From contig NZ_WUAG01000002.1 of the NCBI RefSeq assembly GCF_009828855.1, positions 62,001 to 126,000 on the forward strand: a stretch of 64,000 bases of DNA. Reading direction: 5' to 3'. Shown in pieces: positions 7,742 through 53,487 of the stretch; position 1 is the first letter of the stretch; the number at the start of each line of letters is the position of its first letter. Under the pieces are notes generated by a model. The model was not told the origin of the DNA. It ran no database searches and saw only the letters and a list, made by a program, of their open reading frames with translations. A program made the translations under genes and the position numbers. This DNA is from Psychromonas sp. L1A2. GTDB lineage: Bacteria > Pseudomonadota > Gammaproteobacteria > Enterobacterales > Psychromonadaceae.

Positions 7742-8068
7742 TTAAAGCAAAAAAGCAGCGAACACCGTTAAAGTCACAATCACTAACGCACATAGTAACG
7801 GTGGAACACCAACCTTTGAATGCAATTTTAAATAATGACTTAACGATTTAAAATTCAAAGCACTGTGCATTAAGACTAAAAAAGTAGCAACAACACTTAA
7901 ACAAAGATGTATATCTTTATATTGATGCTTACTAACCCCTAAAAATAACCAATTTCTTACTGCTACCCCATGAGGGGCAAAGTATAAAACCCAACCAGTA
8001 AAAACAAGTAAAACCAAAAAAACAGCCATGGTTACAGCAGCATAAGGACGTAAATGATTATAGTTCAT
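7742..8068 (-). CDS. DUF4405-type small membrane protein (cytochrome b-like)
   Basis: A 108-aa integral membrane protein with three predicted helices (~10-30, 54-70, 86-107). Histidines in KHQYKDIHLCLSVV and LVLMHSALNF are spaced like the haem ligands of cytochrome b561/DUF4405 proteins, so haem binding is plausible. A strong ribosome-binding site (TAGGAG) six bases before the ATG supports the start. No redox partner gene is adjacent, and its function is unknown. Confidence 0.7.
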   Translation of the reverse strand: MNYNHLRPYAAVTMAVFLVLLVFTGWVLYFAPHGVAVRNWLFLGVSKHQYKDIHLCLSVVATFLVLMHSALNFKSLSHYLKLHSKVGVPPLLCALVIVTLTVFAAFLL

Positions 8069-8879
8069 TGTTACTCCTAATATTTAATTTTCTCTATAAT
8101 TTCAAATAAAAGCTAACGATTAAAAGTGCTTATTTTATCTACTTCATTATTAAGTCTATTCATTAATTTTTTTCACCTACCATATTCTTTTATAGTTTGT
8201 ATTATATGTAACTCTCACCACCATTAGCGGCATGCAGATCACATACTGGTTACCAATCAAAATACATTATTAAGTCGTTAACTCGGACATCAAAACAAGG
8301 CGTAACATGATGACAATGGCGAGTCCTTATAAAATATTACACTAAGTATTAGTGTTCGAGTTAACGACCCGCAGGACAAGTCGTGATGCAACCATCTTAG
8401 CTCCTGTCACAGCAAGGAAATAAAATCTCTATTTAACCTATTCGTTCTTTACCTTCATGCCTAGAATCTGTTTACCTTTCGTCTTGCTGAATTTTGTACC
8501 TTGAATGGTGAAGGGGATAGAACCTTTACTTATTTTCACTTAGTTGTCATTGAACAACCTTCATTAGCGCCCAAATCGACAATGATTTAATGACATCATA
8601 AGAATCCCAAATATACTCATCACCTGCAAAATCAGAGAATAATATTTTTTGAGATTCTTTGATTATTGTTGTCTTAAAAGCAATAGTGATTCATATTAAC
8701 TCGCATATATAACTACATTAAAAGGTGTAATAATGTTTTTAAGTTAAATATTGCACCTTGTTACCGTTTTAACGTCTTATATATGGATGTTTTATTAAGC
8801 AATTAAAAACAACTTTACATTAATGCTTTAGATTGATGTTTTAAGCTAATGTTTTACCTTAAGAATAGAAGAGTGAATT
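8069..8879. other. Gene-poor spacer with inverted repeats and a coding remnant
   Basis: No complete gene is seen. Two 16-bp arms (8274-8289, GTCGTTAACTCGGACA, and its near-complement 8353-8368; 15 of 16 pair) enclose a nested hairpin (ACACTAA-GTA-TTAGTGT, 8339-8355). Further right, the minus strand reads VKISKGSIPFTIQGTKF followed by SKTKGKQILGMKVKNE and a stop (about 8447-8545). It begins at a GTG with no ribosome-binding site, so it looks like the tail of a decayed gene. Confidence 0.5.
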
Positions 8880-9560
8880 ATGATAATTTTGCACGGTTTT
8901 GCCGCTAGTAACTATTACAACCTAGTGAAACATGTACTTCTCTATAAACAATTACCATTCCAAGAAAACCTCCTTTACGCAGGCAGCAAGGAGCTATTAG
9001 CCATAAGTCCAGTAGGTAAAGTCCCCGCTATCACAACCCCCGATGATCTGAATATTTCAGAGTCGAGCGTGATTTGTGATTTTCTCGAAGAGACTTACCC
9101 TGATATTCAGCTCTACCCTGAAAACAGTGGCGAACGTGCCGTTGTACGTCAAATAATGAAAATAGCAGAGCTTTACTTTGAATTGCCAAGTAGACGATTT
9201 ATACCTTATGCCTTTTCCGGTACTGAAGCGCCTGAACTAGTTAAAGTAGAAGTACGCCAAGTATTAAAACGCGGTATTACCGCCTTGAGCCATTTATCTC
9301 AATTTTCACCTTGGATTGCAGGTGACCAACTTACGATGGCTGATATTTACGTTTATTACGTTAATAGCATTGTCAGTAAGTTTGCATCTAGCCAACTTGG
9401 ATGGGATGTATTAGCAGAAATTCCAGGAATGACTGAGTGGAATGAGTCTATGAGTGAATCTACGATAGCTCAAAAAATTGAAGCAGATCGTTTAACAAAC
9501 ATGCCTGAATTTATTAAAAAAGTAACGGCTCAAATTAAAGCATCAAAGGCTAAACAGTAA
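8880..9560 (+). CDS. Glutathione S-transferase family protein
   Basis: A 226-aa soluble protein with an N-terminal thioredoxin-like domain and a C-terminal helical domain. The N-terminal part reads ILHGFAASNYYNLVKHVLLY, then the cis-proline and glutathione motif GKVPAI and the SES signature ISESSVICDFLEE. The C-terminal part has the hydrophobic staple region LTMADIYVYYV. The usual Ser or Cys of the first motif is in ASNYYN. Its substrate is unknown. It precedes an MDR oxidoreductase by 106 bp; the pair may handle electrophilic compounds together, which is inference from proximity. Confidence 0.88.
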   Translation: MIILHGFAASNYYNLVKHVLLYKQLPFQENLLYAGSKELLAISPVGKVPAITTPDDLNISESSVICDFLEETYPDIQLYPENSGERAVVRQIMKIAELYFELPSRRFIPYAFSGTEAPELVKVEVRQVLKRGITALSHLSQFSPWIAGDQLTMADIYVYYVNSIVSKFASSQLGWDVLAEIPGMTEWNESMSESTIAQKIEADRLTNMPEFIKKVTAQIKASKAKQ

Positions 9561-9666
9561 TAGTTTGTTCAAGCTAAAAAAAATTACTGAATTAGCCCAA
9601 TAAAAAGCATAACCAATACAAATTTTTATTGGTTAATAACTTACTTATTTGTAGGAGAAAATCGAA

Positions 9667-10794
9667 ATGAAAAATACCAATATTCAACTGACTTCAACTA
9701 TCAGCGAAGACAATAAACTAACACTTGCCTTACAAGACATCGACATGCCACAGCCAGGTAACGATGAAGTGGTTATTCGCATTGAAGCAGCACCATTAAA
9801 TCCATCTGACTTAGGTGTTCTATTTAGTGCTGCAGACCTGTCAACGGCAGCCCAGTCTGGTACAAAACAAAATCCAGTAGTTACCGCAGATGTACCAGCT
9901 CAATTTATGCCTTCACTTAAAACACGTATTGGTAAAGCAACCCCTGTGGGCAATGAAGGCGCTGGCACAGTAGTCGCAGCTGGGTCATCACCTGCAGCGC
10001 AAGCATTAATGGGTAAAATGGTTGCTGTGATTGGTGGTGGTAGTTATCGCCAGTATCATTGTGCCAATATACAAAGCTGCCTTGTATTAAAAGAAGGCAC
10101 AACAGCTAAGCAAGGCGCCTCGTCATTTGTTAACCCACTTACTGCATTAGCGATGGTCGAAACGATGCGTAAGGAAGGTCATAAAGCCATTATTCATGCT
10201 GCCGCAGCCTCAAATCTTGGGCAAATGTTAAATCGTATTTGTATTGCTGATGGCATCGATTTAATTAACATTGTACGAAAACCAGAGCAAGAAACATTAT
10301 TACGCGATATGGGTGCAAAATTCGTTGTTAACTCGAGCAGTGAATCTTTCCTTGCAGACTTAACAGCAGCGATTGTTGAAACAGGTGCAACGATTGCATT
10401 TGATCCAATTGGTGGTGGTCAACTAACCAGTGACATTCTTAACTGTATGGAAGTGGCTGCAGCCCGTGATATGAAAGAACACACGATTTATGGTTCTGAC
10501 ACATTCAAACAGGTTTACATTTATGGTGCACTAAATCGTGGGCCTATTACCTTAAATCGTAACTTTGGTTTCGCTTGGGCTGTAAATGGGTTCTTACTAT
10601 TTAATATACTTGGTAAATTAGGTGCTGAAACCGTGGCAACAATGCGTAAACGCATTGCTGATGAAATTACCACTACCTTTGCTAGTCACTATACACATCA
10701 AGTTTCATTGTCAGAGGCATTACAATTATCATCAATAGCGGCTTATTCTAAACAAGCAACGGGTGAAAAATACCTAATAACACCGCAAAGTTAG
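9667..10794 (+). CDS. MDR-superfamily NAD(P)-dependent oxidoreductase
   Basis: A 375-aa medium-chain dehydrogenase/reductase. Residues ~20-170 form the GroES-like substrate domain (EVVIRIEAAPLNPSDLG; GNEGAGTVVAAG). Residues ~175-310 form the nucleotide domain. The expected glycine-rich turn is replaced by AAAASNLGQML, followed by VRKPEQETLLRDMGAKFVV. The catalytic zinc ligands of alcohol dehydrogenases are missing, so a quinone- or enoyl-reductase role is more likely. TAGGAGAAAATCGAA gives a good ribosome-binding site. A hairpin (9611-9634) separates it from the upstream GST gene, and terminators follow. Confidence 0.85.
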   Translation: MKNTNIQLTSTISEDNKLTLALQDIDMPQPGNDEVVIRIEAAPLNPSDLGVLFSAADLSTAAQSGTKQNPVVTADVPAQFMPSLKTRIGKATPVGNEGAGTVVAAGSSPAAQALMGKMVAVIGGGSYRQYHCANIQSCLVLKEGTTAKQGASSFVNPLTALAMVETMRKEGHKAIIHAAAASNLGQMLNRICIADGIDLINIVRKPEQETLLRDMGAKFVVNSSSESFLADLTAAIVETGATIAFDPIGGGQLTSDILNCMEVAAARDMKEHTIYGSDTFKQVYIYGALNRGPITLNRNFGFAWAVNGFLLFNILGKLGAETVATMRKRIADEITTTFASHYTHQVSLSEALQLSSIAAYSKQATGEKYLITPQS

Positions 10795-10820
10795 TTTATT
10801 ATAAAAATGCAGCCTATTAG

Positions 10821-10847
10821 CAGCCTCTTAAATGGGCTGTTTTTTTA
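10821..10847 (+). terminator. Rho-independent terminator
   Basis: Stem CAGCCT/GGGCTG (one G-T pair) with a 7-nt loop and an eight-T tract, 27 bp after the oxidoreductase stop. Confidence 0.8.
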
Positions 10848-10918
10848 ACGATGAGTGAGTGTAAATATATACCCGTTTCAACGCATTCTGAATGTTGCAT
10901 CTTGAATGGTAACGAGTA

Positions 10919-10950
10919 AAAAAGCAGATGCTGAAATAGCATCTGCTTTT
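10919..10950. terminator. Second, bidirectional hairpin terminator
   Basis: A 12-13-bp perfect stem (AAAGCAGATGCT and complement) around a GAAAT loop, with A and T tracts on either side. It is a back-up to the terminator 70 bp upstream. From here to 11564 I see no gene: the DNA is about 70% A+T with no repeats I can align. Confidence 0.8.
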
Positions 10951-11564
10951 CTATTAAGACTTTTATTGATAAGAGTTCGATAAAAACGAACATTCTAAAT
11001 AACTGGTGTCATGATCATATAATTTGTCATGCATTAGTTTAATCCTTCATGGCACAAAAAAACTACCCCAAATGCCTCTCATACTTGACCGATAATATCT
11101 TACTAATTCATGAAGCTTCCAGTCCTTACTTTCAGATAGCTAACTCCTATCTTTAATCAAACAATTATGAGTTTATAGCCGATTAAACAACCCGCTATTT
11201 ATCGCATTACACAAAAGCGCAGGTCATTAATTTTAATGTACTTTAAAAGCTATTACGTAAAAAGGAAAAGTGTTCGTTCTCAATGCAAATATTTGTGATT
11301 ACTGCACCATGTTAATGCAATTTAATTTATTAATGAGGTTGTTATATAACCTAAACAGAACTAAATTAGCGGCGTTGGTAGTGGGATTACAAATATTCAT
11401 TATTGGTCTAATTATTGCTATTTAATCTTTAATTATTAAGTATTTATTGTTTGTTTGTTTAAAAAGTACTGAAGATGGATATTAAGTTTCCAGATACTTT
11501 CAAACGTTCAAAGTACATTAATTTATCTTTATTTTTTATTACTGAACAAACAATTAGGCTTGCT

Positions 11565-12170
11565 ATGTCTACAAAATCAGCTCAACACTCATTCTTTGAA
11601 GATGCTCAAGGCATACTGATCGGCACACTTCTCGCCGCACTTGGTATTACGTTTTTCAAATCAACAGGATTGCTTATTGGTGGTACGGCAGGTTTAGCAT
11701 TTTTAGGACAATATGCCTCTTCATATTCATTCAGCGATGTATTCTTTATTATCAACTTACCCTTTTATTATTTGTCATACCGACAACTTGGTTTAGCTTT
11801 CACATTAAAAACTTTTATTTCTGTTTTTCTACTGTCTATTTTTGTCGAATATGCACCTGCTTTTATGCAATTTAAATTTTTAGATCCCATCTATGCAGCG
11901 TTGATCGGTGGACTATTGGTTGGTTCAGGTTTACTTGGTTTATTTAGACACCAAGCAAGCTTAGGTGGCCTGACTATTCTCGCGCAATTTTTAGCACAAA
12001 AATACGGAATATCTATTGGAAAGTTTCAAATGGCCGTGGATTGTGTCGTCCTCATTCTTGCCGTTTTTATTGTTGATTGGAATGCTATCATTTTATCAAT
12101 CGTTGGTGCGATTTCCTATAACTTGATACTGGTTATAAATCATAAACCAGGACGCTATAGTGCAAGATAA
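11565..12170 (+). CDS. YitT-family membrane protein
   Basis: Polytopic inner-membrane protein of the YitT (DUF161) family, function unknown. About five hydrophobic segments are visible, including GILIGTLLAALGITFF, the glycine-rich GLLIGGTAGLAFLGQYA, and LIGGLLVGSGLLGLF followed by the conserved HQASLGGLTILAQFL. It lacks the C-terminal DUF2179 domain of longer YitT proteins. The frame opens at 11475, but the ATG at 11565 (MSTKSAQHSFFEDAQG), preceded by TTAGG, matches the usual N-terminus and is preferred. It stands alone on its strand. Confidence 0.8.
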   Translation: MSTKSAQHSFFEDAQGILIGTLLAALGITFFKSTGLLIGGTAGLAFLGQYASSYSFSDVFFIINLPFYYLSYRQLGLAFTLKTFISVFLLSIFVEYAPAFMQFKFLDPIYAALIGGLLVGSGLLGLFRHQASLGGLTILAQFLAQKYGISIGKFQMAVDCVVLILAVFIVDWNAIILSIVGAISYNLILVINHKPGRYSAR

Positions 12171-12366
12171 TGAAATGGTTCCTTTTATAATCAAATAGCA
12201 CTACTAGTCATACAACATTAGTGAAAAGCATCTTAAAATGGTACTACTCGCTGGCAAGATTGGAATATATAAAATGCTCTACAACCTTTAAAAAACGTAA
12301 CTTGAAGCTTATTTCAACATTATTTGAAGGTATAGCCCAACCATAAAGCACACATGTTCAGGTATT

Positions 12367-12990
12367 TTAGTTTTTAATAAATAAAACACTCGTCCCCATA
12401 CCAACAAATAAACCACCACTGATTCTATGGAACCATTTCATGTTATTTATATTTGATAGCACTCCCTTTGCTTTTTGTGCTAAATAGCCATAACAAGATA
12501 ATGATAGAAATGAAAAGGCCATGAATATAGCCGTCATAATGATAAATTGGGGGATAATTTCATAAGTTGTATCTAAGAATTGAGGGAATAATGCAACAAA
12601 GAATAATATTGGTTTAGGGTTGGTCGCCGCGACTAAGAAGCCTTCTTTGAAGTAAGAACTTAAAGATCGGTTATTGTTGATGCCTAATATTTCTTTTGCG
12701 CCTTTCTTACTTGAAAATAATTGTCTAAACCCTAAATAAATAAGGTAAACAGCACCGACTATTTTAACCATAAGAAATACAGTCGAAGATGCTAAAAGGA
12801 TCGCACTAAGACCACTGATCGACAATATTGATAACATCATTAGACCAATAATATTGCCAAGAGCAGACACCATAACGACTTTACTGCCATTAACTGCGCC
12901 ATTATAGATAGCGAGTAAAATAGCAGGACCGGGACTGATGATATAAAAAAATGCGACAAAGACATATATTATTAACGTATCTATATTCAT
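12367..12990 (-). CDS. LysE/RhtB-family amino-acid exporter
   Basis: A 207-aa inner-membrane efflux protein with about six hydrophobic segments. The family signature is near the N-terminus (SPGPAILLAIYNGAVNGSK), followed by ALGNIIGLM. The loop GFLVAATNPKPILFFVALFPQF is typical of RhtB transporters. These export amino acids such as homoserine, threonine or lysine; the specific substrate cannot be told. The ATG is preceded by GGAGGTAGTTC, a strong ribosome-binding site. A LysR-type regulator lies 265 bp upstream on the same strand, which is a common pairing. Confidence 0.88.
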   Translation of the reverse strand: MNIDTLIIYVFVAFFYIISPGPAILLAIYNGAVNGSKVVMVSALGNIIGLMMLSILSISGLSAILLASSTVFLMVKIVGAVYLIYLGFRQLFSSKKGAKEILGINNNRSLSSYFKEGFLVAATNPKPILFFVALFPQFLDTTYEIIPQFIIMTAIFMAFSFLSLSCYGYLAQKAKGVLSNINNMKWFHRISGGLFVGMGTSVLFIKN

Positions 12991-13255
12991 GAACTACCTC
13001 CAAAATCCTACCAGAAAAGATCAGTGCTGATTTAGTAAAAGAAGCCATACAATCTAGTTTTACACCAAAAAATAAATTAAAGCACTGAACAATTAAAATA
13101 CAGCTCAATTAAAATACAGTTCAATTAGCTCACCGATTAACAATTAACTAACCGATTAACAAAATCCTAAAATTAACCATAAAGAGTGTTGTATTGTATT
13201 CATATACTTTATCTGATGTGTCATATTTTATTAAATCATCACGGCTATCAAATAG

Positions 13256-14095
13256 TTAAAACCAATCATCTTCACTTTCTAACACTTTGATAAGATGTTG
13301 CTTTAAATTATTAATGTTTAACTCTTTTTTAGCGTATCGAATTAAGTACACAGGATACGAAAATTGTGGAGAATCAGGGGTTAATTCGAGTAATCCTTGT
13401 TGTAAATATCGATTAATAACTCTTGTTCTAAAATAACCGCTACCACCACTTTTAAGCATTACTTGTAAAGCAACAGGCCCTAAGCTGATCGATATATTAC
13501 TTCGCGCTAATTCTGGTAAAGCAGAGTCGTGCAATCTTTTGAATTTCTCACCCCAGTCGACATAAAGGTACGGAGTAGGCTTATTAACTGATTGAACTCT
13601 TACCAGTTTTTCATCTAATAAATGTTCAACCACAATTCGAGAGCTGTATTCAGGTTGATGGACAAGCGCAATATCTAATCCACCAGAGCGCACTTTCTCA
13701 CACATTTGTTTATTGTCGCCTACCTCAATGGTTATCGCTAACTCTGAGGCAGTTTCATTCAGATGCGTTATTAACGTTGCTGCAATAGGATTCCATAACG
13801 TCAAATCAACACCGATAGCTAAACTACCTTTCACTGTTTCAGGTAACGGCAAATCTCTTTTAGCAGCATCCCATGTTTGCACTATTTGTGTCGCATAAGA
13901 TTTAAAATGCTCTCCATTTTTTGTTAATGACGCACCACTTTTATTACGAATAAATAAGGCGCACTCCAACACCTTTTCTAAAGACTTTATGCGAGCGGTG
14001 ACGGTAGTTTGAGTCACGTTAAGTTCATCTGCGGCTGCACCAAAAGTGTTCAAGTCGCAAATAGTTAGAAATGTTTTAGCTAAAATATAATCCAC
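13256..14095 (-). CDS. LysR-type transcriptional regulator
   Basis: A 279-aa LTTR. Residues 1-60 form the winged helix-turn-helix (FLTICDLNTFGAAADELNVT then QTTVTARIKSLEKVL). Residues ~90-270 form the periplasmic-binding-like effector domain (GSLAIGVDLTLWNP). It is transcribed toward the LysE-type exporter, which it may control, and divergently from the HPP region. The effector is unknown. The protein is slightly short for the family (usually ~300 aa) at the C-terminal end. Confidence 0.88.
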   Translation of the reverse strand: MDYILAKTFLTICDLNTFGAAADELNVTQTTVTARIKSLEKVLECALFIRNKSGASLTKNGEHFKSYATQIVQTWDAAKRDLPLPETVKGSLAIGVDLTLWNPIAATLITHLNETASELAITIEVGDNKQMCEKVRSGGLDIALVHQPEYSSRIVVEHLLDEKLVRVQSVNKPTPYLYVDWGEKFKRLHDSALPELARSNISISLGPVALQVMLKSGGSGYFRTRVINRYLQQGLLELTPDSPQFSYPVYLIRYAKKELNINNLKQHLIKVLESEDDWF

Positions 14096-14328
14096 TTACT
14101 CACCTTTACATTCAAATAATCAATAATAAATCGATATATTATTCATTATACATTACTCATTGATTTATTATATTCTTTCGCACCAAATCAGTGCCAACGA
14201 CCAATAATGGTGCGCGCATTAATTATGGCTATTTATTGTTGGAGACAAGTATTAAATCTTTGAATATTTTTAAACTTATTAATCGTAGTAATATCTTAAT
14301 GTTGAACGCCCTCTTTATAGCCTTACTA

Positions 14329-14489
14329 ATACCAAAAGAATTAATAAGGTGCTCATTCTTGCTGGTTAAAATCCCCCCTAACTGCGTTGTGAGTTTTGAA
14401 GTGAGAACAACTATCTCCTACAACTCACGCCTTATTAGTGTTAATTTTTCCTGCGCAATCTCTGATCACTTATTTAATTCCATTGGTAT
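14329..14489. mobile_element. MITE-like element, family A, copy A4
   Basis: Full-length 161-bp copy with both terminal repeats. It has landed in the region just upstream of the small ORF at 14512, and one reading frame runs through the element into that ORF. The insertion may therefore have replaced the native promoter or 5' end. Confidence 0.78.
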
Positions 14490-14511
14490 AACAATACTTT
14501 CAGTTCATTTA

Positions 14512-14682
14512 ATGGATACTAAGAAAACAATAATCCAACTAATTATTAATGATCTGATGGCTTACTTTATGGCGGTTTGGCCTGTTTTTATTTTTGCTCT
14601 AGCCAATGCTGTAGCTGTCTTATATCAATCGTTGTATGCATTTAAATTAGTAAGTTTAAAAGAGTTGGATATCGCTGAATGA
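14512..14682 (+). CDS. Small membrane protein upstream of the HPP gene
   Basis: A 56-aa ORF (MDTKKTIIQLIINDLMAYF...) with one or two hydrophobic helices, FMAVWPVFIFALANAVAVLY. Its stop overlaps the HPP start (ATGA at 14679-14682), suggesting translational coupling. The reading frame extends upstream to 14191 through MITE copy A4, but that part is repeat sequence and probably not native coding. No ribosome-binding site is clear. It could be the remnant of a longer gene cut by the MITE. Confidence 0.45.
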   Translation: MDTKKTIIQLIINDLMAYFMAVWPVFIFALANAVAVLYQSLYAFKLVSLKELDIAE

Positions 14683-15632
14683 TCAATAATGCATTAACCA
14701 AAGAGATTAAATTATTTTTAGGTATCCCGACAATAGGGCCCACTTTTAAGGAAATAATTGTTTCATCATTCACCGCTTTATTAGCGACACTGTGTGTCAT
14801 TTACATCTCCAAAGATCTATTAAGCTATTTTAATGTGCACGCCAATATTTATATTTTAATTCCTATTGCAGCGACTTCAGTTCTTGTATTTGTTGTTCCT
14901 CATGGTGCGTTGTCTCAGCCGTGGCAAGTGATTGTAGGTAATCTCGTTAGCGCGTTTATAGGGGTGACTTGTTATCAATATTTCGGCAATGATCTGGCAA
15001 CCGCCGCAGCGTTGTCTGTATCAATCTCGATAATGACGATGTCACTGTTAAGGTGTGTACACCCGCCAGGTGGAGCAACGGCATTAGGCGCCGTTTTAGG
15101 GGGAGATACTATCCACCAATTAGGTTATAGCTATTTACTGATCCCGACATTATTAAACTGCTTAATCATTATTTCAGTTGCAATCGCTTTAAATTATCCA
15201 TTTAGTTGGCGACGATATCCGTCTCATTTATATTACAAAAATAACCTAACCAACACTATTTCACCTGGTGCAAGAGCCAATGAAGTGACTGTTGAGGACT
15301 TCATGAAGGCAGTGACCGAACATGGTTCATTTATCGATATGACCGATGAAGGTTGGAATGAGATATTTGAAAAAGCCAAGCAACATGCTGAATACGACAA
15401 CATACACCCACACAATATTGAATCAGGTCAAACCTATAGCAACGGAAAAATAGGAAAAGAATGGGAGATTAGAGAAGTATTAACGATAAGTAATAAAAAG
15501 ACCGTAAAATACTTTGTACTCGCAGGTGAAAACATAAATCTCTTAGAATCTTGTTCGGTAAAGGAGTTTATTGCTTGGTCTAAGTTTAAAGTGAGCAAAA
15601 ACAATATTGGCATATGGGAGAGACTGACTTAA
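14679..15632 (+). CDS. HPP-family integral membrane protein
   Basis: 317 aa. The N-terminal ~170 residues hold four or five membrane helices and the family signature (LLRCVHPPGGATALGAVLGG). HPP proteins include nitrite carriers of plastids and cyanobacteria, but most bacterial members have unassigned substrates. The last ~130 residues (from ANEVTVEDFMKAVTEHGSF) are soluble and do not look like the CBS pairs seen in many HPP proteins. I cannot assign this tail. It overlaps the small membrane ORF by 4 bp, so the two probably form a short operon. Confidence 0.82.
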   Translation: MINNALTKEIKLFLGIPTIGPTFKEIIVSSFTALLATLCVIYISKDLLSYFNVHANIYILIPIAATSVLVFVVPHGALSQPWQVIVGNLVSAFIGVTCYQYFGNDLATAAALSVSISIMTMSLLRCVHPPGGATALGAVLGGDTIHQLGYSYLLIPTLLNCLIIISVAIALNYPFSWRRYPSHLYYKNNLTNTISPGARANEVTVEDFMKAVTEHGSFIDMTDEGWNEIFEKAKQHAEYDNIHPHNIESGQTYSNGKIGKEWEIREVLTISNKKTVKYFVLAGENINLLESCSVKEFIAWSKFKVSKNNIGIWERLT

Positions 15633-46187: not shown

Positions 46188-46466
46188 CTACTCCATGCTA
46201 AGTTTTCTTTCTTTCGTGAAGTGCCACCAAGGAAGCGAATCACCACCTTCCATATAAGATATTGCCGATAAGAAAACATCTATAATACAGTGATCTTGTT
46301 TGCAACCAAGTCTTGAACAATGTAGTCCATACAATTCATATGCATTTTTGCCAATGAGTTGCTTTGGATGAGTTAATCCAATTTTTTCTAAATCAGCCGA
46401 TATTGCTTTACCGATATTTGGTAAATCTGACATTTTCGAAATTTTATCGCGATCTGGTGATTTCAT
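46188..46466 (-). CDS. Cdd1-like helix-hairpin-helix protein (third cassette)
   Basis: 92 aa. It resembles the Cdd1 / pathogenicity-locus family: SPDRDKISKMSDLPNIGKAI, then SADLEKIGL, LIGKNAYELYGLHC and a C-terminal DVFLSAISYMEGG...PWWHFTKERK. The LPNIGKAISADL stretch is a helix-hairpin-helix, suggesting DNA or nucleotide contact; some members have been labelled mitomycin-resistance proteins. The ATG is 13 bases inside the cassette that starts TTAGCA. The attC of this cassette has been split by mobile unit copy 1. Confidence 0.82.
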   Translation of the reverse strand: MKSPDRDKISKMSDLPNIGKAISADLEKIGLTHPKQLIGKNAYELYGLHCSRLGCKQDHCIIDVFLSAISYMEGGDSLPWWHFTKERKLSME

Positions 46467-46473
46467 ATTATAT

Positions 46474-46573
46474 TGCTAACGCCTAATTAACAGGCAAAAA
46501 ATAGTTGGTTACAATTAGCGACGAAGGAGCAAAAACCAACTGTTTTTTGTCCTTGTTTAATTTCTTGTTAGGT
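46474..46573 (-). repeat. attC2 (intact)
   Basis: 100-bp attC. On the plus strand it opens TGCTAAC and closes GTTAGGT. The arms AGTTGGTTAC and AACCAACTGTTTTTTG pair. It belongs to the cassette of the 139-aa protein and is the only uninterrupted attC of the three. Confidence 0.85.
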
Positions 46574-46575
46574 TT

Positions 46576-46995
46576 TCACGGCCACCAATTGTCAGCCCAT
46601 AACTCACCAGTAACCTTAATGTTAGAGCATAAAGGTATTTCAGAGTTATCAAACTCATTATCAAATTGCAGCTGAAAAGAAGATTTAAGTAGAAATAGCA
46701 CTTCATCATCTAGTACATCAATTGACAGCAATTCTCCAGTGGCAATGAAGTAGCAATTTTTATTTGGAAAAGTAATCTGTGATGTGTTGTTTCCATGAGG
46801 CATTTCAACTTTACAGTTTTCACCTTTTAACTCTACCTCAATGGATTTACCAACCACAAATATTTGTTTAGCCTGAGAGTCTGAACCTTGATAGTAAAAG
46901 TGAATAATAGTCTTATCTTCTAACTCAGCAACAACTTCACCTTCGGCGTCACACCCGCAGGAATTTAAAGCTATGATGGTGACTCGATACTTCAT
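46576..46995 (-). CDS. Unknown 139-aa cassette protein (second cassette)
   Basis: I do not recognise the family. It is an acidic, all-beta-looking protein with Cys at CGCDAEG, GENCKVEM and PNKNCYF (segments EVVAELEDKTIIHFYYQGSD; FVVGKSIEVELKGENC). The end KVTGELWADNWWP is aromatic. The ATG lies 11 bases inside the cassette, which starts TTAGGTTTTC; such short leaders are typical of integron cassettes. There is no signal peptide or membrane helix. Confidence 0.75.
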   Translation of the reverse strand: MKYRVTIIALNSCGCDAEGEVVAELEDKTIIHFYYQGSDSQAKQIFVVGKSIEVELKGENCKVEMPHGNNTSQITFPNKNCYFIATGELLSIDVLDDEVLFLLKSSFQLQFDNEFDNSEIPLCSNIKVTGELWADNWWP

Positions 46996-47000
46996 TGAAA

Positions 47001-47100
47001 ACCTAACGCCGCACTAAGCGGACTAAAATAGTGGGTTAAAATGTGTAGCGAAGCGAAACGTAACCCACTGTTTTAGTTCCGTTTAAGTGTCTTGTTGAAC
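47001..47100 (-). repeat. attC3 (interrupted by mobile unit copy 2)
   Basis: 100-bp attC, a close relative of attC1. On the plus strand it opens ACCTAAC and closes GTTGAAC. It is the attC of the SIR2 cassette, separated from the gene by the inserted unit. It differs from attC1 at roughly a tenth of its positions, although the adjacent units are identical, so the attCs are older than the insertions. Confidence 0.85.
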
Positions 47101-47192
47101 GAAGCCGCTGTGCGGCAGAAAAACAAAATACCAATAACGTTCATACTTATATTTATATCACTTTTCGGTGATATCTAATAGGAGTATAAGCG

Positions 47193-48080
47193 ATGAACAC
47201 CTCAGAGCAACAACACTTTAATCTTTTATATCAACAGCATTTGACCAACCTAACACTGCAAGGCATGAGACCTGCCACGATTGATGCCTACTCTCGTGCA
47301 GTACGTAGGATAACTACCTTTTTTGACCGCACACCTGACACATTAACCAAAGCAGATTTAAAGTGTTACTTTGCACAACTCATTCAAACTCACTCGTGGA
47401 GTACCATTAAATTAGACCGAAATGGATTACAGTTTTTTTATAAACATACTCTCGATAGACAGTGGGAATGGCTCAATATTGTCAAACCACCACAAGTAAA
47501 ACGCATTCCCGACATCCTCACGCCACAACAAATTGGACTGATAATTAGCCACACTCGTGCATTGCGTTATCAGGTGTTTTTTCTTGTTTTGTACAGCATG
47601 GGATTACGCTTAAGTGAGGCCCTTGATTTGACGGTGAACGACATTGATAGCCATACCATGCAAGTGCATATTCGCGAAGGTAAAGGAGGTAAAGACCGTT
47701 TACTCCCTTTACCCAAACGAACACTTTCTGCATTACGTTGCTATTGGTCAACGCATCGTCATCCGCAGTTGTTATTTCCAAGTATTGGTAAAAACACACA
47801 AGTGCCGATGGATAAAGGCAGTGTGCAGAAAGCGTTGAAAAAAGTGATGACTGAATTGGGTATTAATAAATCTATCAGTCCACATTCATTACGACATTGC
47901 TTTGCAACTCATCTCTTAGAGCAAGGTATTGACCTACGCTCCCTGCAAATACTATTGGGACATCACAGCCTGAATACGACAGCGAAATACACACAACTCA
48001 CTCCACTCAAACAAAAAGATAATGTCACCGCCTTGAACCAGTTAACCGAAAGGTTATCAATTCAATGGGAGGCATCATGA
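47193..48080 (+). CDS. Tyrosine recombinase of the mobile unit, copy 2
   Basis: Protein identical to the 295-aa recombinase at 43972-44859, with the complete catalytic set (Arg139, His231, Arg234, His257, Tyr266). The identity of the two copies points to a recent duplication or to strong homogenisation. It overlaps the transposase start in the same ATGA arrangement. Confidence 0.9.
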   Translation: MNTSEQQHFNLLYQQHLTNLTLQGMRPATIDAYSRAVRRITTFFDRTPDTLTKADLKCYFAQLIQTHSWSTIKLDRNGLQFFYKHTLDRQWEWLNIVKPPQVKRIPDILTPQQIGLIISHTRALRYQVFFLVLYSMGLRLSEALDLTVNDIDSHTMQVHIREGKGGKDRLLPLPKRTLSALRCYWSTHRHPQLLFPSIGKNTQVPMDKGSVQKALKKVMTELGINKSISPHSLRHCFATHLLEQGIDLRSLQILLGHHSLNTTAKYTQLTPLKQKDNVTALNQLTERLSIQWEAS

Positions 48081-49126
48081 GCCAATTTATTGCACTACTT
48101 GAGCGCTATCAAGCACAACTGGAGCAACAATATGGTGGATTGTTGAATCAAGATATTCGTCGCGCTATCACTGATATGCTGCACTGTAAAAACGATGTAA
48201 ATCGAACGACCCAATGGCATTGTGGCCATTGTCAGCATGACCAACAACTCCCAGCATCTTGTGGGAATCGAAGTTGTCCACAATGTTTGCATCAAACAAC
48301 TTCAAATTGGTTAGCTAAACAGACCGATAAACTATTACCCGTACACTATTTTATGGTCACCTTTACGCTACCCTATCAATTGAGAGTACTGGCTCGTCAA
48401 CACCCCAAAGCACTGTATCAATTGATGTTACAAGTGACGGCGGGCATATTAAAAGACTTTGCCAAGCGAGAGAATAAAGGCAGTTTAGGGTTTACTAGCG
48501 TATTACACACGCATAATCGGCGACGTGAATGTCATCCTCATGTGCATATCATTGTGCCCTGCGGACGTTACGATACGACAAAGAAACAATGGCACAAAAG
48601 TGATGCAAAATATCTGTTTAATGAATTTGCACTCGCTAAAGTATGGCGGGCAAGAGTCATTGATGCGATTAATCACAGCGCTGAGTTAACCATGCCCACT
48701 GACACGCCTAAAAAATGGATGGTCGATTGCCGTAAGGTCGGATTTGGTGCCTCTGCTTTTAAATACTTATCACGTTATCTGTATCGTGGCGTGTTACCCG
48801 ATAAAGACATTATTAACCTCTCCGAGGAAATGGTCACATTTAAGTATAAAGAAAGCAGCACTAATATGACTAAAGAACGTACTTTACCTGTGCTCGAATT
48901 CTTATGGTTAATCTTACAACACGTGTTACCAAAAGGTCTGCAGCGGGTGAGGGATTATGGGTTTTTAAGAGGTAATGCCAAACAACTGCGACTACAAATA
49001 TTGCTGATATTGGGGAGCGACATAAGCACAATGGCGACACCAGTAAAACGCAAGCGTGCTATCTGTATTTGCCCATGCTGTCACCATGAAATGCATTTTA
49101 TGGGCTTAAGTCGACTGAGAAACTAA
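48077..49126 (+). CDS. IS91-like HUH transposase, copy 2
   Basis: Identical in protein sequence to copy 1 (349 aa, zinc finger, HPHVH, YLSRYLYRG). Both transposase genes are full length, so either could act on both units. Confidence 0.92.
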   Translation: MSQFIALLERYQAQLEQQYGGLLNQDIRRAITDMLHCKNDVNRTTQWHCGHCQHDQQLPASCGNRSCPQCLHQTTSNWLAKQTDKLLPVHYFMVTFTLPYQLRVLARQHPKALYQLMLQVTAGILKDFAKRENKGSLGFTSVLHTHNRRRECHPHVHIIVPCGRYDTTKKQWHKSDAKYLFNEFALAKVWRARVIDAINHSAELTMPTDTPKKWMVDCRKVGFGASAFKYLSRYLYRGVLPDKDIINLSEEMVTFKYKESSTNMTKERTLPVLEFLWLILQHVLPKGLQRVRDYGFLRGNAKQLRLQILLILGSDISTMATPVKRKRAICICPCCHHEMHFMGLSRLRN

Positions 49127-49348
49127 TGCGTGAAAACGTACGGTCTTAAACAGATCATTGACACAAATAAAAGATTAACAAGCCAGAGAGGTGATATGGC
49201 ATTCAACATATAAAATATAACATACTGATATAATTGAGGTATCAATTTTATATTAGCGAGACTCGCCTTAAAGAAAGTTGAATTATTGAGCCAGCCCAAA
49301 ACCCATTCCACTATTTACTATATAAAGCAAAGAGTCTCATACGGGCTT

Positions 49349-49403
49349 GTCCAACACTCAGATAAGGTGTCGGCTGCGCGACACCTATCCTTATTTGTTA
49401 TAC
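49349..49403 (+). repeat. Short attC-like end of mobile unit copy 2
   Basis: Same 55-bp hairpin as at 46128-46182, but its closing box is GTTATAC because the last bases come from the SIR2 cassette. It directly abuts the SIR2 stop codon (49404-49406). Confidence 0.75.
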
Positions 49404-50708
49404 CTAAATTTGGTTCACCACTGCGAGGGCATCTATATTGTATGTTTTTTCTTTAATAAACTCTTTTATCATTACCCTATTCTTAGAAATTATACTTGAC
49501 CAACGGATGTTCCATGAGTTGTAAGCGTGCCATGAATAGCCAACACGATGTTCTCGACACATCGAGGTCATAGATCTTAATGTTGCATCTAAATATACTT
49601 TCTCAATCGATGTCCCCTTAATTTCTAAAATACTAGATAAATATATCAACCACCTAGCAAGGTGCTCATATTGTTCCCAAGCATTATTTTCACTAGTTAG
49701 TTTACGTTTAGATTCGATAATTTGCCCCAATGCCCGAACGACTTCAGGATGCTCTATGCTTTTACCAATAGCTCCGATAGAAGATATAATTTCGTAAAAT
49801 GCATTTTCCATTTTTAGAAACGATGGAGTGAAATAAGCGCTTTGGAAAACTACTTTTCTAATATTTTCGATTGAGGATTCAGTGCATTTTTCAGCCTCAG
49901 GAAGGTACATATTCAAATTAACAAAAAAATCATTTACTTCCAGCGAATCCATAACGCGAATACCGTAACAATGCGCATAATAGTCTTTTACTGATTGATC
50001 GACAGCATTTCTCGAAACTAAGAAAATATTTGCACCAATTACATGGTCTCTAGAAAAACCTTTATAGTCGTTAATAATTGATTTTAGATTGGCATCACCT
50101 AATGAATACCCAAGAATTACAACCGTATTTTCATGTAATACAGTACTAAGTTTCTTTGAAAAATAAGAGTTTGTATTCATAAATTTAAAATAATCGTCTG
50201 AAGTTACGACCATGTTTTCAGGAGACTCTATAGATCCATGTACATGGTAGACTTTCACTTGTGTTGAAGAGCGTGGAATTGGCAACCCAGGAGTTATAGA
50301 CTGACACCTCTCTGACCCAGCCAATTTTTCAGCTAATTTATCATAATTTGTAGTAACAACACGGACAGATTTTGTAGACAAAAATTGAGAAATTGCAGAA
50401 TTATTCCCTTTAATTTCAACTTTTGAAATTATCTTAGACACTTCATCGTGAAGATTTTTATGATTGCTTAACAGTTCTATAGATAAAACTTGTGCAACTT
50501 CCTCTAAACTCAGTGGGTTTTTTCCATTTTCGGGAAATAGAGCTAATTTTAAGTCTTTACCTCTAGGTGTTAACAAACAGATTTCTTCGAGTAATCCTTG
50601 CCAACTTGGAGCTTCATTCAAGCTAACTGCTTTAGAAAAACCAGTACCAGTAAATAAACATAATCTATTTGATACAGCGGCATATGCAATTTCAAAATAC
50701 TCGCTCAC
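49404..50708 (-). CDS. SIR2-domain protein, first integron cassette (candidate antiphage NADase)
   Basis: 434 aa from a GTG at 50708 with TAAGGAG 6-8 bases upstream, 19 bases inside the cassette. The SIR2-like Rossmann domain spans ~10-250: GTGFS (21-25), TTNYDKL with Asn121 and Asp123, VYHVHGS with His157-Gly158, DDYFKF and VVILGYSLGD (~196-205). Residues ~260-434 are a helical domain I cannot assign. SIR2 proteins of this type in defence systems (e.g. Thoeris ThsA, SIR2-HerA) deplete NAD on infection. First position next to attI normally gives the highest expression. The antiphage role is inference. Confidence 0.85.
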   Translation of the reverse strand: MSEYFEIAYAAVSNRLCLFTGTGFSKAVSLNEAPSWQGLLEEICLLTPRGKDLKLALFPENGKNPLSLEEVAQVLSIELLSNHKNLHDEVSKIISKVEIKGNNSAISQFLSTKSVRVVTTNYDKLAEKLAGSERCQSITPGLPIPRSSTQVKVYHVHGSIESPENMVVTSDDYFKFMNTNSYFSKKLSTVLHENTVVILGYSLGDANLKSIINDYKGFSRDHVIGANIFLVSRNAVDQSVKDYYAHCYGIRVMDSLEVNDFFVNLNMYLPEAEKCTESSIENIRKVVFQSAYFTPSFLKMENAFYEIISSIGAIGKSIEHPEVVRALGQIIESKRKLTSENNAWEQYEHLARWLIYLSSILEIKGTSIEKVYLDATLRSMTSMCREHRVGYSWHAYNSWNIRWSSIISKNRVMIKEFIKEKTYNIDALAVVNQI

Positions 50709-50721
50709 TCTGACTCCTTAG

Positions 50722-50904
50722 GTATAACAGCTTATTATACGGAACTTATCCGCATTTTCCGTGGATAGATAGAACAGTATATTTTATTTAAATTTGATAC
50801 AAGAGTAACAAATTATATCAATTAAACAATGTGTTAAAAACAAAAATAAAACCTTAATCATGTGGATAGATAGAAAAAGTCCGTATTAACAACAAAAATA
50901 CGGA
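50722..50904 (-). other. attI region
   Basis: The recombination box GTTATAC (minus strand, 50728-50722) joins the first cassette. Behind it are a 14-bp direct repeat GTGGATAGATAGAA (50761-50774 and 50862-50875), an inverted pair ACGGAA/TTCCGT (50738-50762) and a perfect 8-bp stem TCCGTATT/AATACGGA (50880-50904). Direct and inverted repeats of this kind are the accessory IntI sites in known attI regions. A cassette promoter Pc is expected here but I could not locate it with confidence. Confidence 0.7.
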
Positions 50905-50954: not shown

Positions 50955-51932
50955 ATGAAATCTCCATTTTTGTCAGCAGTTACTGAAAATATGCGCATGA
51001 AGTTTTATGCAGAAAAAACAATTAAAGCTTATGTATATTGGATAAAGTCTTATATTTACTTTAATAATAAAAAACACCCATTTGATTGCCATGATAAAGA
51101 AGTAGAGTCTTTCCTTTCTTACCTCGCTAATATCAAGAAAGTAGCCCCAAAAACTCAAGCATTGGCACTTAATGCATTAGTTTATTTATATCGAGATTTT
51201 TTAGATAAACCATTAACTTTGACGCTTAAGTTTAAAAAAACGAATACACAACCCAAACTACCGATTGTGCTGACACCCGAAGAAGTTTCGGTTTTGCTAG
51301 CAGAGATTCCGGTATCAATCTCACTCCCTTGTTATTTATTATACGGGAGTGGGTTGAGGCTAATGGAGGCTGTTAAATTACGAATACAAGATATTGACTT
51401 TGATTACCTCTCAATTAATATTTGGCATGCTAAAGGAGGTAAACATCGCAGAGTAACACTTGCTCCTGAACTTAAGGGTGTTTTACAAGATCAAATAGCT
51501 AAAGTTCATTTGTATTATCAGGAAGATATACAACGGGCTGATTATAAAGGAGTTTATTTACCTTATGCATTAGCAGGTAAATACCCGAATGCGGCTAAAG
51601 AATTCAAGTGGCATTACCTATTTCCTTCGTCCCTGCTATCGATTGAACCAGGAACTAAAAACCTAAGACGTCACCATATACATGAAACAAATATTCAAAA
51701 AACAATAAAAAAGACGGCACAAAAATTGAACTTTAGTAAGCAAGTTACCCCTCATACATTACGCCATTCATTTGCAACTCATTTATTACAAAGGGGAGCA
51801 GACATTCGAACTGTACAAGAGCAATTAGGCCATACAGATATCCGTACCACACAAATCTACACTCATGTATTACATGCGGGTGCAAATTGTGTAAGAAGTC
51901 CGCTATCAGATTTAATGATTGATAGAAAATAA
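50955..51932 (+). CDS. intI: Integron integrase IntI
   Basis: 325-aa tyrosine recombinase. Catalytic residues Arg135 (GSGLRLMEA), His267 and Arg270 ([17 protein letters not shown]), His293 ([10 protein letters not shown]) and Tyr302 are present. The integron-specific extra helix is visible at ~200-222 ([20 protein letters not shown]), which separates it from XerC/D. AAGGAG precedes the ATG. Family members recombine single-stranded attC hairpins with attI. It is divergent from the array, as in typical integrons, and looks intact. Confidence 0.95.
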
Positions 51933-53382: not shown

Positions 53383-53438
53383 TAGGAACTTAGGAACTTA
53401 GGAACTTAGGTGCTTAGATACTTAGATGCTTAGATGCT
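53383..53438. repeat. 8-bp tandem repeat, seven units
   Basis: Units in order: TAGGAACT three times, TAGGTGCT, TAGATACT, and TAGATGCT twice. It lies 50 bp downstream of the last gene of the Nit1 cluster. The unit count is the kind that changes by slippage. Confidence 0.88.
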
Positions 53439-53487
53439 TAGCCGTTATGCACTTCAAAATTGAATCTGCCCTATTATTTCAAGGCCT

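Follow-up and report, generated by a model that had tools for sequence, protein, structure and literature searches.

A SIR2-domain gene in the first cassette of a Psychromonas integron: a predicted single-gene antiphage NADase with relatives in prophage-like elements and P1-like phage-plasmids

The stretch of DNA analysed here, to which we refer as the window, comprises 64,000 nucleotides of the genome of Psychromonas sp. L1A2, which consists of the two contigs C1 and C2 (2.49 and 1.85 Mb, respectively); the window lies on C2. An intact SIR2-domain gene (49404..50708, minus strand), recognized through ORF calling, Pfam, alignment and a structure model, opens with a GTG codon, is free of internal stop codons and encodes a protein of 434 aa. 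It forms part of the first cassette of an integron whose integrase gene intI (50955..51932, plus strand) adjoins it, is divergent from the cassette and matches TIGR02249 with 434.8 bits versus a cut-off of 265. The start codon is found 19 bases inside the cassette, behind a leader (50709..50727, minus strand) with an AAGGAG ribosome-binding site that ends five bases 5' of the GTG (G|TTATACC TAAGGAG TCAGA GTG). Pfam detects a SIR2_2 domain (PF13289) in residues 117-252 with 92.5 bits versus a cut-off of 24.5; given this score and the existence of full-length homologs with 51-82% identity, the SIR2 assignment is not a matter of chance. The SIR2 NADase-type domain occupies about residues 1-260 and is followed by an all-helical C-terminal domain of 174 aa (residues 261-434). 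The NAD-site motifs are GTGFS (21-25), TTNYD (119-123, with N121), HVHGS (155-159, with H157) and GYSLGD (200-205). Their residues are invariant in an alignment of 20 sequences except for V156 and G204, the P1-like relatives possessing a serine in place of the second glycine of GYSLGD, and both N121 and H157 are present in 20/20 sequences. The gene in its first cassette, the leader, the motifs and the unassigned helical domain had all been pointed out in a first-pass annotation of this DNA, and each of them holds.

All components expected of an integron cassette, intI, attI, a core site and an attC, are present in the window. The recombination core between attI and the cassette, GTTATAC (50722..50728, minus strand; crossover G|TTATAC), lies at the very base at which the identity with a second genomic copy of the cassette stops, and the sequence that separates intI from the cassette is similar to the attI region in the genome's second integron. 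Directly after the SIR2 stop codon follows a native R'' box, GTATAAC (49397..49403, minus strand), complementary to the cassette's own start. The attC itself is interrupted by an IS91-like element about 2.3 kb long (47095..49396, plus strand; ends set by comparing copies and good to a few bases) with genes for a tyrosine recombinase (47193-48080) and an IS91 transposase (48065-49126). It separates the SIR2 gene from the remaining part of the attC (47001..47100, minus strand), whose R'' box GTTCAAC stems from the end of the element, and extends the cassette to 3.7 kb. Consequently, the cassette extends beyond the IS91-like element, to the attC at 47001-47100. A hairpin after the SIR2 stop codon (about 49340-49400) was considered as the cassette attC and rejected, as the comparison of copies shows it to be the end of the IS91-like element. 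Scanning for attC sites with strict R boxes gave no result, and a relaxed scan proposed attC-like sites at hairpins next to several IS91-like copies, its matches elsewhere being probably due to chance. The "best-expressed position" previously ascribed to the gene holds with respect to position; a promoter scan between intI and the SIR2 gene yielded no clear Pc on the strand of the cassette. One LexA-like box with one mismatch is found upstream of intI, and such boxes occur at chance frequency across the window (16 versus 18.6 expected); neither scan near intI revealed anything that bears on cassette expression.

The transposase gene of the IS91-like element is present in its own genome in six intact copies; a relative at 76% and a broken copy exist in addition. 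All eight left ends of the element that we found (43874 and 47095 in the window; L033 17612; L034 3325 and 6890; L044 7071 and 10337; L045 8207) adjoin an attC, each time at AAC|AAG, beside the CAAG of the attC, and the element end supplies a new R'' box, GTTCAAC. Judged from these junctions, cassettes that receive the element may stay movable by virtue of the rebuilt R'' box. A copy of ISShvi3 beside an attC has been reported for Shewanella (PMC9229058), and the parts of the literature covered by our search contain no description of an IS91-like element that targets attC sites and repairs the R'' box. Between two IS91-like copies (46188-46995) lie the next two cassettes after the SIR2 cassette, which are small and encode a Cdd1-domain protein of 92 aa and a 139-aa protein without Pfam match. 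Elsewhere in the window (53385-53440), a tandem repeat with a unit of about 10 bases (such as GGAACTTA and GATGCTTA) separates two genes.

A gene 100% identical to the window SIR2 gene is present at C1 2364923-2366221, within a cassette array that has no integrase gene. The identity spans 3725 bp (window 47004-50728) and ends at GCGTTA on one side and at GTTATACC on the other, both of them integrase core sites. As an identical copy of this length is bounded by core sites, the SIR2 cassette appears to move as a unit. The simplest reading of the two sequences is that the whole cassette moved between arrays via the integrase, and the second identical copy suggests that it stayed movable with the IS91-like element inside it. 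Homologous recombination was dropped as a source of the second copy since both ends of the identity fall at GTTA core sites, which homologous exchange would not favour; an assembly error was set aside as well, provisionally and from the assembled sequence. That the cassette resides next to attI on one replicon and inside an array on the other is best explained by a recent move as a unit, whose direction we infer. Close matches to the window integrase in this genome comprise the integrase itself, a disrupted gene at C1:1098507-1099732 with 73-86% and, near 256.9 kb of C2, a short remnant; the recombinase of the IS91-like element is matched too, and the others are partial (e.g., C2:750543, 58% over 57 residues).

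In the second integron (L043 9991-11352, at C1:1.10 Mb), about 250 bp interrupt the integrase gene, and the first cassette encodes a distant SIR2 paralog of 453 aa, with its attC at 11347-11454; this protein is 29% identical to the window protein, over residues 15-267 only. Just past the C1 array that holds the second copy, a KAP-NTPase gene (L034 10217-11671) matches the PADLOC candidate PDC-S20 with an E-value of 4e-86. The nearest relative of the window protein (82%) is encoded in a Colwellia metagenome-assembled genome (L001), where its gene leads a cassette array (8001-14798) with attC-like sites of about 100 bp after the attI-like AATAAGCTGTTATA. These sites were identified by eye in intergenic sequence, the relaxed scan having given none there, and no integrase was found in the 17-kb stretch. 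The second gene of this array matches PD-T7-5, a named phage-defence model (E 3.8e-115), and the array holds a second SIR2 gene as well. A SIR2 gene is accordingly found at each of three attI-like starts (window, 453-aa paralog and Colwellia), a number that proves nothing. That integron cassettes carry defence genes, as the first-pass annotation had stated, is in print: antiphage cassettes have been described in Vibrio and in mobile integron arrays (Darracq 2025; Kieffer 2025; Getz 2025; via PMC12409362 and PMC12444791). The likeness to our case lies in small defence cassettes housed in integron arrays, and the difference in that the window cassette occupies two kinds of place in one genome, the interior of an array and attI. 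A SIR2 cassette is named in neither of the two articles, as far as their accessible text extends (0 occurrences).

Outside its integron setting, the protein belongs to a family already delineated in PHROGs, phrog_7567, which it matches over its whole length (residues 1-421 on profile positions 1-421 of 434; E 6.6e-174). The family shares its length of 434 aa and differs from the window copy by the integron cassette setting of the latter; PHROGs gives no function for it, and its C-terminal part is also represented by phrog_35181. Full-length relatives are rare: of 398 genomes sampled across the phylum, three encode one, the Psychromonas genome included (a fourth match is partial), and of 24 genomes of its own family just this one does. 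A loose search at the level of the order (E up to 0.001) matched 41 of 394 genomes, mostly through the SIR2 part of other proteins. Pattern searches in a collection with one genome per species recovered six relatives (53-82%); the gene at L004 has no read-through and was excluded from the alignments. At three loci (L005, L009 and G439), the adjoining genes look, by eye, like housekeeping genes.

In the IMG/VR viral contigs, 39 loci matched, 27 of which are close relatives at 52-71%. At 14 of these 27 loci, the surrounding genes include mat plus lxc or ulx, as in P1-like elements; another shows mat alone, its contig ending inside the gene, and 12 lie outside the P1 slot. Among those of the latter 12 whose neighbours were examined, six have phage-type neighbours: baseplate and major-head genes in L047, an adjoining repressor gene and a nearby CII-like gene in L048, a phage primase gene in L050, which shares its neighbour families with L048, terminase genes near the gene in L055 and L064, and a DnaB-like helicase gene in the prophage-like L046, where genes for a DUF2971 protein and, two genes downstream, a TIR protein are also found. 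L049 offers a helicase gene only, and L051 shares neighbours with the metagenomic locus L002 and may not be viral. The integron proteins group with L046 in the tree (95/94 support). DUF2971-type genes recur beside the SIR2 family or in the P1 slot (L046 4934-5857, by Pfam; L128 9541-10371, by eye; L099 8269-9279, by annotation). A search of 50,697 deposited phage records brought up four weak partial matches (24-29%) and no relative of full length, and the link to phages consequently rests on the IMG/VR contigs, PHROGs and plasmid records. PLSDB contains 190 matching plasmid records, 122 of them from Escherichia; 123 match over at least 80% of the protein. In the neighbourhoods listed, we find one gene without a recurrent partner; P1-type genes aside, no neighbour family is common to more than two of these loci.

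In phage P1, the res gene of a type III restriction system lies between mat and lxc, and the regulatory features of the record place mod in the same interval, so that the slot is bordered by mat and by lxc-ulx-darB. Precisely in this slot the IncY plasmid U2501 carries the SIR2 gene, followed by genes with the sizes of lxc, ulx and darB. The P1-type SIR2 gene occurs in 63 of 5426 E. coli genomes, with 65 of its 66 places on plasmids (megablast), and the lxc-ulx pair in 699 of the same number (702 records). Among at least 30 lxc-ulx records, 10 hand-picked P1-like elements were inspected; two further listed records, H164 and H165, are known to carry SIR2. The 10 slots contain a type III restriction-modification system (two), nothing (two), a YaaC gene with a small gene (two), a RelA/SpoT-domain gene, a DUF2971 gene, SIR2 (one each) or are disturbed (one). 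Only the two restriction-modification slots hold an established defence system; the remainder is suggestive. Variation of P1-like elements at res-mod has been reported, in a text whose accessible part makes no mention of SIR2 (PMC9603915), and genes from P4 and P2 hotspots include uncharacterised SIR2 genes (PMC9122126). Homologs of the window protein are hence not confined to non-defence contexts, a point on which the first-pass annotation had made its reading depend: they are present in prophage-like contigs and in the exchangeable slot occupied in P1 by a restriction system.

With many relatives in phage-like elements, and with a repressor gene adjoining and a CII-like gene near one of them in surroundings that recur in another (L048 and L050), one may ask whether the gene serves the mobile element itself, either through lysogeny control or by excluding close phages only, or is neutral cargo in the integron. 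We regard this as unlikely. Relatives also exist outside phages, in integron arrays and alone, and the phage can do without the SIR2 gene, as in some P1-like elements the slot is occupied by a restriction system or empty. An antiphage role, in contrast, appears well supported by the sequence context, and it draws mainly on the P1 slot and on the fold of the SIR2 domain.

The structure model of the window protein (mean pLDDT 83) places this domain among antiphage NADases. Its closest fold matches are DSR2 (Z 23.1, rmsd 3.0, 255 aligned residues), KomBC (Z 21.9, rmsd 3.0, 256 aligned) and SeThsA (Z 21.7, rmsd 3.2, 251 aligned), all within residues 1-280 of the model; matches to DSR2, ThsA and KomC range from Z 18 to 23, and the best 50 VIA entries for the whole model are exclusively of the SIR2 type. 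N121 and H157 align with N133 and H171 of DSR2, whose exchange to alanine lowers the NADase activity of that protein (PMC10981675). The C-terminal domain, for which the first-pass annotation had proposed a structure prediction of residues 260-434 and its comparison with defence SIR2 proteins, yields a confident model when taken alone (pLDDT 90.6), with nine helices and zero strands, but has no clear match to known folds: the best VIA hit (Z 7.6) is in the range that VIA calls common, and Foldseek found no match with an E-value below 0.001. Both programs gave nothing but generic helical-repeat matches, which were discarded as evidence. Pfam assigns no family to this domain in the window protein and gives only stray single-member matches among 14 members. 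Searched for on its own, the domain was found in three of the 398 phylum genomes, always in a frame that also encodes SIR2, and at 27 loci in viral contigs, all 27 of which carry SIR2 too; 26 of these lie on contigs already found, among them L068/L125 with its gene broken into two frames, and the only addition (L123) likewise has SIR2. No instance of the domain without SIR2 was detected in either collection. In DSR2, the C-terminal domain senses the tail tube protein of the phage (PMC10981675), and by analogy we propose that the helical domain of the window protein is most likely a sensor or regulatory part that responds to a phage product.

Like the SIR2-domain defence NADases, the window protein combines a SIR2_2 domain with the catalytic Asn and His residues, yet by the features compared it appears to belong to a single-gene family outside DSR1/2, Thoeris, Kongming, SIR2-HerA and Avs5. 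The PADLOC models PDC-S25, ThsA, LmuA, Dsr1 and Dsr2 match its SIR2 part only; for PDC-S25 (model length 517-528 aa), residues 14-246 align with positions 23-277 of 517. With DSR2 it shares the SIR2 fold (Z up to 23), the aligned catalytic residues and the layout as a single gene with a C-terminal extension, but DSR2 has about 1000 aa, a middle domain and its tail-tube-sensing C-terminal domain, so that only the SIR2 part aligns. The NCBIfam models for DSR1 and DSR2, which span 1215-1263 positions with a cut-off of 1400 bits, score 32.0 and 27.1 bits, again in the SIR2 part only. KomC chains are alike in fold (Z 19.5-21.9 for KomC/KomBC) but consist of 264-278 aa without a C-terminal domain and were solved in complex with KomB. 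SIR2-HerA (Nezha) works with HerA, SPARSA with a pAgo protein, Kongming with KomA and KomB, and Lamassu with LmuB; no gene for any of these partners adjoins the window gene. A STAND NTPase domain, as in Avs5 (SIR2-STAND), was not detected by Pfam in the window protein, which has 434 aa only.

ThsA deserves separate consideration, as it shares the SIR2 domain, has a similar length (about 476 aa) and resembles the window protein in fold (Z 18.5-21.7). Its C-terminal domain is an alpha/beta SLOG domain, the defining feature of ThsA. The proximity of the SIR2 domain to ThsA and KomC in both sequence and fold, together with the TIR gene near the relative in L046, could be taken to mean that the protein is the effector of a Thoeris-like or Kongming-like two-component system whose nucleotide-signal producer is encoded elsewhere. 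This appears very unlikely to us. Neither a SLOG domain nor any other C-terminal Pfam domain is found in the window protein, whose C-terminal model lacks strands; as the domain is all-helical and not SLOG, the known signal pocket is absent. No ThsB TIR gene adjoins the window gene, whose neighbours are intI and the genes of the IS91-like element, and the lack of a recurrent neighbour family noted above also argues against a dedicated partner. That the protein is an NAD-dependent protein deacylase, as its automatic RefSeq name on E. coli plasmids has it, or a toxin directed at the host that serves to maintain the element, appears highly unlikely: the folds nearest to it are those of antiphage NADases, Plasmodium SIR2A, a classical sirtuin, comes last among the best 50 VIA entries (Z 12.7), and in the neighbourhoods listed small partner genes do not recur except at P1-type loci.

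A single-gene NADase abortive-infection cassette is consequently the best explanation for the window gene, and we consider it probable, with the enzymatic activity being a prediction. Of this proposal, which the first-pass annotation had already put forward, the gene without recurrent partner, the defence-type fold and the conserved Asn/His pair are borne out, and the remainder is predicted. The N-terminal SIR2 domain would be an NAD+ hydrolase in a latent state, in which N121 and H157 form the catalytic pair like their counterparts in DSR2. Upon encountering a phage product, the C-terminal helical domain (residues 261-434) would release this activity; the infected cell, provided that it expresses the cassette, would lose its NAD+ and die, and the phage cycle would remain incomplete. 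Temperate phages and phage-plasmids would carry the family as a weapon against competing phages, and a phage-borne gene would have been captured as an integron cassette and then moved as a unit to its attI-proximal position. In the literature searched, we found neither an experiment on the phrog_7567-type SIR2 family nor a paper on a full-length single-gene SIR2 family in integrons, phages and P1-like phage-plasmids.

Neither SIR2 NADases nor antiphage integron cassettes are new as such, and the storage of antiphage genes by integrons is on record (PMC12409362; PMC12444791). What our data add is a link between three carriers through one SIR2 family whose C-terminal domain is uncharacterised: integrons, prophage-like elements and, at the place of the EcoP1 restriction system, P1-like phage-plasmids. 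Tentatively, and as a possibility that we would put at somewhat below even, the window genome offers a natural snapshot of the integron as a defence biobank, in which an identical NADase cassette was recently promoted from an inner array to an expressible attI position, with phrog_7567 representing a distinct antiphage family that has a helical sensor and is swapped with restriction systems in P1-like phage-plasmids. Re-insertion of cassettes at the first position has been seen by PCR at the population level, the variants not having been isolated in the work as far as its text is available to us (PMC12409362), and the Psychromonas genome may provide a natural example of such a re-inserted cassette. 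If the proposed antiphage role is true, phrog_7567, a PHROGs family without function, would gain one.
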